Shown here in pieces: positions 9,945 through 53,801 of a stretch of 64,000 bases of DNA. The first letter of the stretch is position 1; every line of letters begins with the position of its first letter. Both the position numbers and the translations under genes were made by a program. Below the pieces are notes generated by a model. It was not told where the DNA came from, searched no databases, and saw only the letters and a program-made list of their open reading frames with translations. The stretch covers positions 248,001 through 312,000 of the forward strand of contig JAHHHZ010000011.1 of assembly GCA_019359095.1 (NCBI GenBank), written 5' to 3'. Source of the DNA: Pleurocapsa minor HA4230-MV1. GTDB lineage: Bacteria > Cyanobacteriota > Cyanobacteriia > Cyanobacteriales > Xenococcaceae.

Positions 9945-10067
9945 TATAGTCATTCCAATTAATTTCCGTATGCTAGTAGATGATGCGAAAAGCGATAATC
10001 CTCGTAGGGGCGATTCGCGAATCGCCCCTACTACAAAATCGTATGTTTTTTATTTGGAATGACTATA
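9945..10067. mobile_element. MITE-like element, 123 bp, TIR TATAGTCATTCCAA
   Basis: TATAGTCATTCCAA at the left end and TTGGAATGACTATA at the right end are perfect 14-bp inverted repeats that begin and end with TA, as expected for IS630/Tc1-type non-autonomous elements. The interior holds a perfect 28-bp palindrome at 10004-10031 (GTAGGGGCGATTCG and its complement). There is no coding capacity and no transposase in the window. Confidence 0.75.
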
Positions 10068-53261: not shown

Positions 53262-53297
53262 AGAAAATAGGAAATAGGAAATAGGAAATAGGAAATT
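53262..53297. repeat. GGAAATA heptamer array, left side
   Basis: About four copies of GGAAATA in plus orientation run up to the stop codon of the four-helix-bundle gene. The matching array on the other side is in inverted orientation. Confidence 0.85.
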
Positions 53298-53721
53298 AAG
53301 ATTTAGATTTGGTTTTGATCTTTTGTGTGGTGGCTACCAAAATACTAATTATTTCGTTTAATTCTTGAAGAAGCAAGTCGAATTTTTGCTTTGAAATAAC
53401 ATCTGATTCAATCATTATCTTAATCCAGTGAATGCTGGAGCATTCCGACAGCTTCGCTGGCGATTTGGCTGCGCCAAATGTTTCACTGGCTTCTTTTAAG
53501 GCGATATAGTATTTTGAAAGATAATCGGCTGTTGACTGAGCGAATCTAGCCTCTGCGCAGTTCGCACCAATGCTCGTACCGCTTCTAAGAAATTGTTTTG
53601 ACAAAACTTTTGCTGCGTCATCAAAATGCCTTTTATTTAACTCACAATAAGCTTTAATTACTCGAACTCCAAAAGCTCTAGTTCTGTCTTGTATATAGGT
53701 ATTATTATTCATCCGAATCAT
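53296..53721 (-). CDS. Four-helix-bundle protein (23S rRNA-IVP family) with palindromic insertion
   Basis: A 141-residue protein. LSKQFLRSGTSIGANCAEAR and YLSKYYIALKEASET match four-helix-bundle IVP proteins, which in other bacteria are found in rRNA spacers or beside diversity-generating retroelements (Avd). No retroelement or variable region is present here. Between ASET and HWIKIM lies an extra stretch FGAAKSPAKLSECSSI, encoded by a palindromic element (53425-53489) that stays in frame. The gene is bounded by inverted heptamer arrays. Confidence 0.8.
   Translation of the reverse strand: MIRMNNNTYIQDRTRAFGVRVIKAYCELNKRHFDDAAKVLSKQFLRSGTSIGANCAEARFAQSTADYLSKYYIALKEASETFGAAKSPAKLSECSSIHWIKIMIESDVISKQKFDLLLQELNEIISILVATTQKIKTKSKS
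53425..53489. repeat. Triple-hairpin palindromic element inserted in a coding frame
   Basis: Three adjacent palindromes (GAATGCTGGAGCATTC; CAGC-TTC-GCTG; ATTTGGC-TGC-GCCAAAT) lie within an outer inverted pair CCAGTGAA/TTCACTGG. The length is compatible with the reading frame. Confidence 0.75.
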
Positions 53722-53747: not shown

Positions 53748-53801
53748 GGAAATAGGTTGTATAACTTCCTATTTCCTATTTCCTACTTCCTATTTCTATT
53801 T
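53748..53801. repeat. TTCCTAT heptamer array, right side (inverted relative to left)
   Basis: About five copies of TTCCTAT run into the 3' end of gcvP. This is the reverse complement of the GGAAATA unit on the other side of the four-helix-bundle gene. Confidence 0.85.

Follow-up and report, generated by a model that had tools for sequence, protein, structure and literature searches.

The element and its host gene

What is a run of three palindromes doing inside the reading frame of a four-helix-bundle gene, and does it have counterparts elsewhere? The question was raised by the initial annotation of the window (the whole 64-kb stretch of DNA analysed here), which described a triple hairpin at 53425-53489, closed by an outer inverted pair and inserted in the gene. 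The sequence is as described, and the extent had to be shortened. On the minus strand, three hairpins of 17, 17, and 16 nt follow one another without any spacer from 53479 to 53430 (Table 1). The two outer hairpins have 7-bp arms without mismatch (53463-53469/53473-53479 in hairpin 1 and 53430-53436/53439-53445 in hairpin 3), and the middle hairpin contains a single C.T mismatch. The outer pair is for the most part coding sequence of the host gene itself (codons for A-S-E and H-W), and the element therefore measures 50 nt, not 65 nt. An adjacent hairpin triple of this kind occurs only once in the window, and no comparable triple was produced in 60 Markov shuffles (3.84 Mb). RNA folding gave a z of -2.63.

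Table 1 Features of the triple-hairpin element and its host gene in the window.
Feature	Position	Strand	Evidence
Host gene, four-helix-bundle protein, Pfam 23S_rRNA_IVP, 141 aa including the insert	53296..53721	-	ORF; PF05635, E 2.3e-14
Triple-hairpin element, 50 nt	53430..53479	-	Covariance model match, 62.1 bits, E 8.3e-12; net 45 nt missing in all aligned host-gene homologues
Hairpin 1, ATTTGGC-GCA-GCCAAAT, 7 bp	53463..53479	-	Inverted repeat I3; stem variable and covarying in relatives
Middle hairpin, CGCCAGC-GAA-GCTGTCG (inner stem CAGC/GCTG), constant C.T mismatch; conserved core of the family	53446..53462	-	Exact 18-mer core recurs in relatives, with two flanking palindromes in every cyanobacterial case
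Hairpin 3, GAATGCT-CC-AGCATTC, 7 bp (or 6 bp with a TCCA loop)	53430..53445	-	Inverted repeat I2; variable, covarying stem
Outer inverted pair, left half CCAGTGAA, overlapping hairpin 3; mainly host codons, outside the element	53425..53432		Inverted repeat I1
Outer inverted pair, right half TTCACTGG; host codons (A-S-E), outside the element	53482..53489		Inverted repeat I1

The host protein passes the curated Pfam cut-off for 23S_rRNA_IVP (53.9 bits against 33.8), and its reading frame runs ...KEASET-FGAAKSPAKLSECSSI-HWIKIM.... KEASET and YW are separated by one residue in the homologues and by 16 residues in the window gene, which amounts to 15 residues, or 45 nt, gained on balance, and the last I of the insert sits where the homologues have their single residue before YW. 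The alignment bore out the clean gap expected of an insertion, since none of the aligned homologues from the same genome or from relatives contains the 15 residues. Four further 23S_rRNA_IVP matches were identified in the same genome, all without the insert, one of which is a C-terminal fragment. The window copy is in frame with the gene and stop-free over its 45 nt. We infer that the IVP protein tolerates the additional 15 residues, with no adaptive function implied; structure prediction of the host protein from its single sequence was of low confidence (mean pLDDT 47). A chance palindrome, or the ordinary divergence of a single gene in a family that evolves fast, might be entertained for a family that is multi-copy with many decayed copies, yet it is hardly credible in view of the clean gap, the shuffled sequences without triples, the recurrent core, and the dozens of copies of the same architecture described below.

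The KEASE/YW site appears to be a hot spot for insertions into the IVP gene. In the gene of a related genome (G006, locus L175), the KEASET/YW site contains a decayed copy of the same element type, and unrelated hairpin-rich inserts are found at KEASE/YW in other species (L171 of G002, ~448-508, 60 nt; L173 of G011, ~494-539, 45 nt). IVP genes are scattered among species without synteny. Orthology between the window gene and the G006 gene was not demonstrable because their neighbor genes differ, and shared descent is thus inseparable from independent hits. Two other features were observed. Copies of a GGAAATA-type heptamer tandem repeat lie on both sides of the IVP gene in inverted orientation (53265-53297 and 53748-53795), and three other IVP homologues (L181, L182, and L183) have longer inserts with stops near GANCxEA and mark a second place at which the IVP family is interrupted.

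A dispersed family with a conserved core

The initial annotation expected the same DNA at other places. In its literal form this expectation failed, as a plain DNA search of the genome with the window element found no further copy, but the same core and architecture recur in the genome and in relatives. The plain search returns the window copy alone because conservation is limited to these two features. Pieces of the middle hairpin do reappear in relatives, each with two more palindromes of very different sequence alongside. When 84,980 species were scanned for exact matches to the 18-nt core, 41 stretches were identified, with no Rickettsia record among them. The matches from cyanobacteria (uncultured Pleurocapsa and a Hyellaceae MAG) have the flanking hairpins; those in unrelated bacteria and one viral contig have none and were set aside as chance matches. 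Of all the evidence, this exact-core sample is the least biased, as it was selected without regard to the flanks, whereas the selection of copies by a model favors paired stems; the sample is small.

The covariance model search identified at least two copies in the genome of origin, the window element and G000:C3:41260-41313. Furthermore, clear copies were found in seven other species of the genus, with at least ~25 in the richest MAG, and at least ~15 copies in a species from a second genus within the same family, all counts from model searches being lower bounds per genome. Clear copies were seen in two genera of one cyanobacterial family, and no convincing copy outside this family was present among the matches listed for 196 genomes of the order. 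The sole weak match outside the family in that set (L290) is missing the palindromes and shows no covarying triple, and no covarying triple was found in the weak model matches from other families (L130-L132) either. The non-subscription literature that was searched has no description of this element.

We read the window element as a member of a family of mobile DNA elements of pleurocapsalean cyanobacteria that are 48-58 nt long and non-autonomous, would move in trans, and would have their stems rewritten, and give this reading a probability of roughly 80%. The low copy number in the genome of origin speaks against it. The triple-hairpin element appears to be a very small mobile element of a kind not described before.

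A related element was observed in sister genera (G013, G020, and G019; centers of L263-L289). It has the form GCGATCGCG-NNN-GCGCCAGCGAAGCTGTCCGC-NCTGCGCCTCG(variable)CGAGATCGC, a double hairpin adjoining HIP1 octamers, in which the core is the same and the second hairpin covaries, and is present in 7-12 copies per genome, against 0 for the reversed control pattern.

Hypervariable stems that remain paired

The copies of the family, 48-58 nt long, are built of three abutting hairpins around the constant frame TCGCC(hairpin)GTCGG. Their general plan can be written as Y-[H1, 7 bp, loop 2-4]-CGCC-[inner stem 4-7 bp, loop mostly 3]-GTCG-[H3, 7 bp, loop 2-4]-R, in which the CG/CG pairs and the C.T mismatch, both in the middle hairpin, are invariant. 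All three stems are hypervariable yet paired. Among 41 distinct copies, in which the H1 arm has 21 versions and the H3 arm 25, 722 of 732 pairs are Watson-Crick and only four are G.T. All 108 pair cells of the six seed copies are paired (108/108), with a covariation exceeding that of all 500 shuffles and all slid registers. The arms are reused in differing combinations and at both outer positions (for example, AATCGC ten times and GCGGAC five times), which suggests that they are exchanged as modules. In two species, a Tn3 transposase gene carries a copy at the same position; these two copies (L134 and L126) have their stems in common and their loops inverted (CGTAG/CTACG and TCCA/TGGA).

Perfect covariation is normally taken as proof of a functional RNA. 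A transcribed three-hairpin RNA, either mobile or regulatory, with stems held paired by selection through ordinary compensatory evolution, would explain both the covariation and the fixed stem lengths, and movement via RNA has reportedly been suggested for the small repeats of Nostoc. However, G.U pairs, the usual intermediates of RNA covariation, are nearly absent from the 732 pairs, no Rfam family was matched in seven element-bearing loci, and the element lies inside ORFs in both read directions and various frames. We regard such an RNA as unlikely. The scarcity of G.T suggests that pairing is maintained in the DNA itself, through rewriting on a hairpin template or whole-module swaps, and not by selection on RNA. 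For the mobile DNA family proposed above, the stems may be altered by DNA hairpin-templated (quasi-palindrome) rewriting together with module exchange, which would keep them perfectly palindromic on both strands. A further, tentative possibility is a mobile element defined by shape and not by sequence, with stems ever rewritten as perfect Watson-Crick palindromes, recognition through a constant mismatched core, and residues dropped into proteins; the rewriting might then be templated by the target, or the hairpin might copy itself during insertion.

Insertion sites and the possible mode of movement

Besides the window gene, about ten ORFs are interrupted within or next to Pfam domains. The copies interrupt or adjoin conserved domains of C5 DNA methylase, AAA, Tn3 and IS1 transposases, tyrosine integrase, Uma2, DUF5895, and toxin-antitoxin genes, and two TnpB paralogues are hit at positions a few nt apart. 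Copies inside ORFs are read in either direction and in different frames, and others lie in intergenic DNA and in TTAGCCA-type heptamer arrays. Nesting was also observed, as L156 and L162 hold a copy within the middle hairpin of an element that otherwise resembles the un-nested L140. In the YhaV and PemK genes, the flanks were not joined across the copy.

Pre-insertion sites were recovered at about ten loci, with a net gain of 45-50 nt: 45 nt in the window and at L124, 46 nt at L147, 48 nt at L144, L135, L161, and L134, and 50 nt at L217, L148, and L141. The gain is divisible by three at six of these loci, a proportion that partly reflects our choice of loci, and the remaining ones are frame-shifting or lie outside a confirmed ORF. 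The window copy is in frame, but insertion is not inherently so: several copies shift the frame, such as the one in an IS1 gene and one of the two in a gene for a Tn3 transposase. The gains that are not multiples of three show that no frame mechanism is built in. The parsed copies leave 5.56 of 6 reading frames open, compared with 4.49 +/- 0.24 for composition-matched random arms, an excess that is suggestive only since copies with shared arms are not independent. The peptide of inserted copies is not conserved, except for the core part.

At most pre-insertion sites, 4-6 nt of the target are unmatched. The first pairs had pointed to a constant replacement of 5 nt of target, an idea abandoned when further sites gave 4-6 nt, and no general target duplication was found at the approximately ten loci. 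The youngest site (L217, ~90% identity) shows a clean 50-nt gain after AATC, and the other sites do not read so. The element does not have the conserved terminal inverted repeats and target-site duplication of a MITE: its ends are not conserved, the net gain goes with 4-6 unmatched nt of target, and L217 alone could be read as a 4-nt duplication.

The footprints of insertion bear on how the element would move. Microhomology template switching during replication needs no transposase: the polymerase would jump to a distant element and back, leaving variable small target losses. The replaced 4-6 nt and the absence of general duplication are consistent with it, as are the likeness at L217 (empty target AATCGCTTGGAG against element start AATCGCTGGAG, with AATC at the element end) and the fact that hairpins are hot spots of template switching. 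We consider this process somewhat unlikely, as the remaining empty sites bear no likeness to the element ends, and the clustering of copies near one spot in the TnpB paralogues and in heptamer arrays suggests a target preference.

Alternatively, an IS200/IS605-type (Y1, HUH) transposase or a RAYT might mobilize the hairpins in single-stranded form, a mechanism proposed for REP/REPIN, which are short palindromes thought to be moved in hairpin form by Y1-type transposases and which include GTAG types in cyanobacteria (PMC3116915, PMC3733652). The element consists of hairpins only and leaves no general target duplication, L217 is compatible with insertion 3' of AATC by an element ending in AATC, three copies lie within TnpB-type genes, and the second copy in the genome of origin forms the end of an ORF read by eye as an IS200-like transposase. 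IS genes, however, are frequent neutral targets. Most REPs lie outside genes, and they have a conserved stem and a tag, GTAG or CGTC; the triple-hairpin element shows none of these: its stems are hypervariable, its flanks are Y...R, and the hairpin foot bears neither tag. We consider such a transposase an unlikely agent. Elsewhere in the window, a perfect 13-bp palindrome at 10004-10031, GTAGGGGCGATTCGCGAATCGCCCCTAC, starts with GTAG and resembles a GTAG-tagged REP.

In the mobile-family reading, copies would insert into genes, intergenic DNA, tandem heptamers, and one another, moved in trans by a putative enzyme or a replication-linked process, which may recognize the folded hairpins or the core and not the sequence of the stems.

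Relation to known small elements

The small dispersed repeats (SDRs) of Nostoc were reportedly described by Elhai et al. in 2008 as hairpin-forming repeats of 21-27 nt with compensatory changes, which reportedly lie in heptamer tandem repeats and nest in their own kind. The triple-hairpin element resembles them in being very small, dispersed, cyanobacterial, associated with heptamer repeats, and self-nesting, with compensatory changes in its hairpins. Unlike the SDRs, it measures 48-58 nt, has three abutting hairpins with every stem variable, is common inside coding domains, and occurs in only two genera of one family.

The Nostoc repeats are cited in PMC3116915 and in PMC4390886, the latter for the insertion of SDR5 into HIP1.

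The likeness to Rickettsia palindromic elements, raised in the initial annotation, is a partial one. In both cases palindromic DNA lies in frame in unrelated genes and adds a peptide (PMC10969869), and the present element is often found in frame inside conserved domains. The Rickettsia elements, by their description, are ~150 bp long and conserved in family sequence and peptide (PMC10969869), whereas the element described here has 50 nt, belongs to another phylum, has no conserved peptide beyond the core, has several copies out of frame, and gave no core match in the Rickettsia records scanned. Adjacent hairpins and apparent mobility are also shared with the double-hairpin elements of Allomyces mitochondria, for which flanking duplications are not reported, and with the repetitive hairpin elements of sponge mitochondria (PMC2800124); by description, these differ in being mitochondrial and double, not triple.

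The triple-hairpin element would rank among the smallest mobile elements and would be a cyanobacterial parallel to the Rickettsia palindromic elements. Not every coding domain that it enters is broken, and its stems change while the palindromes stay, with hardly any G.T intermediates. The family makes it testable whether DNA-level hairpin rewriting, instead of selection on RNA, may be a source of perfect covariation.
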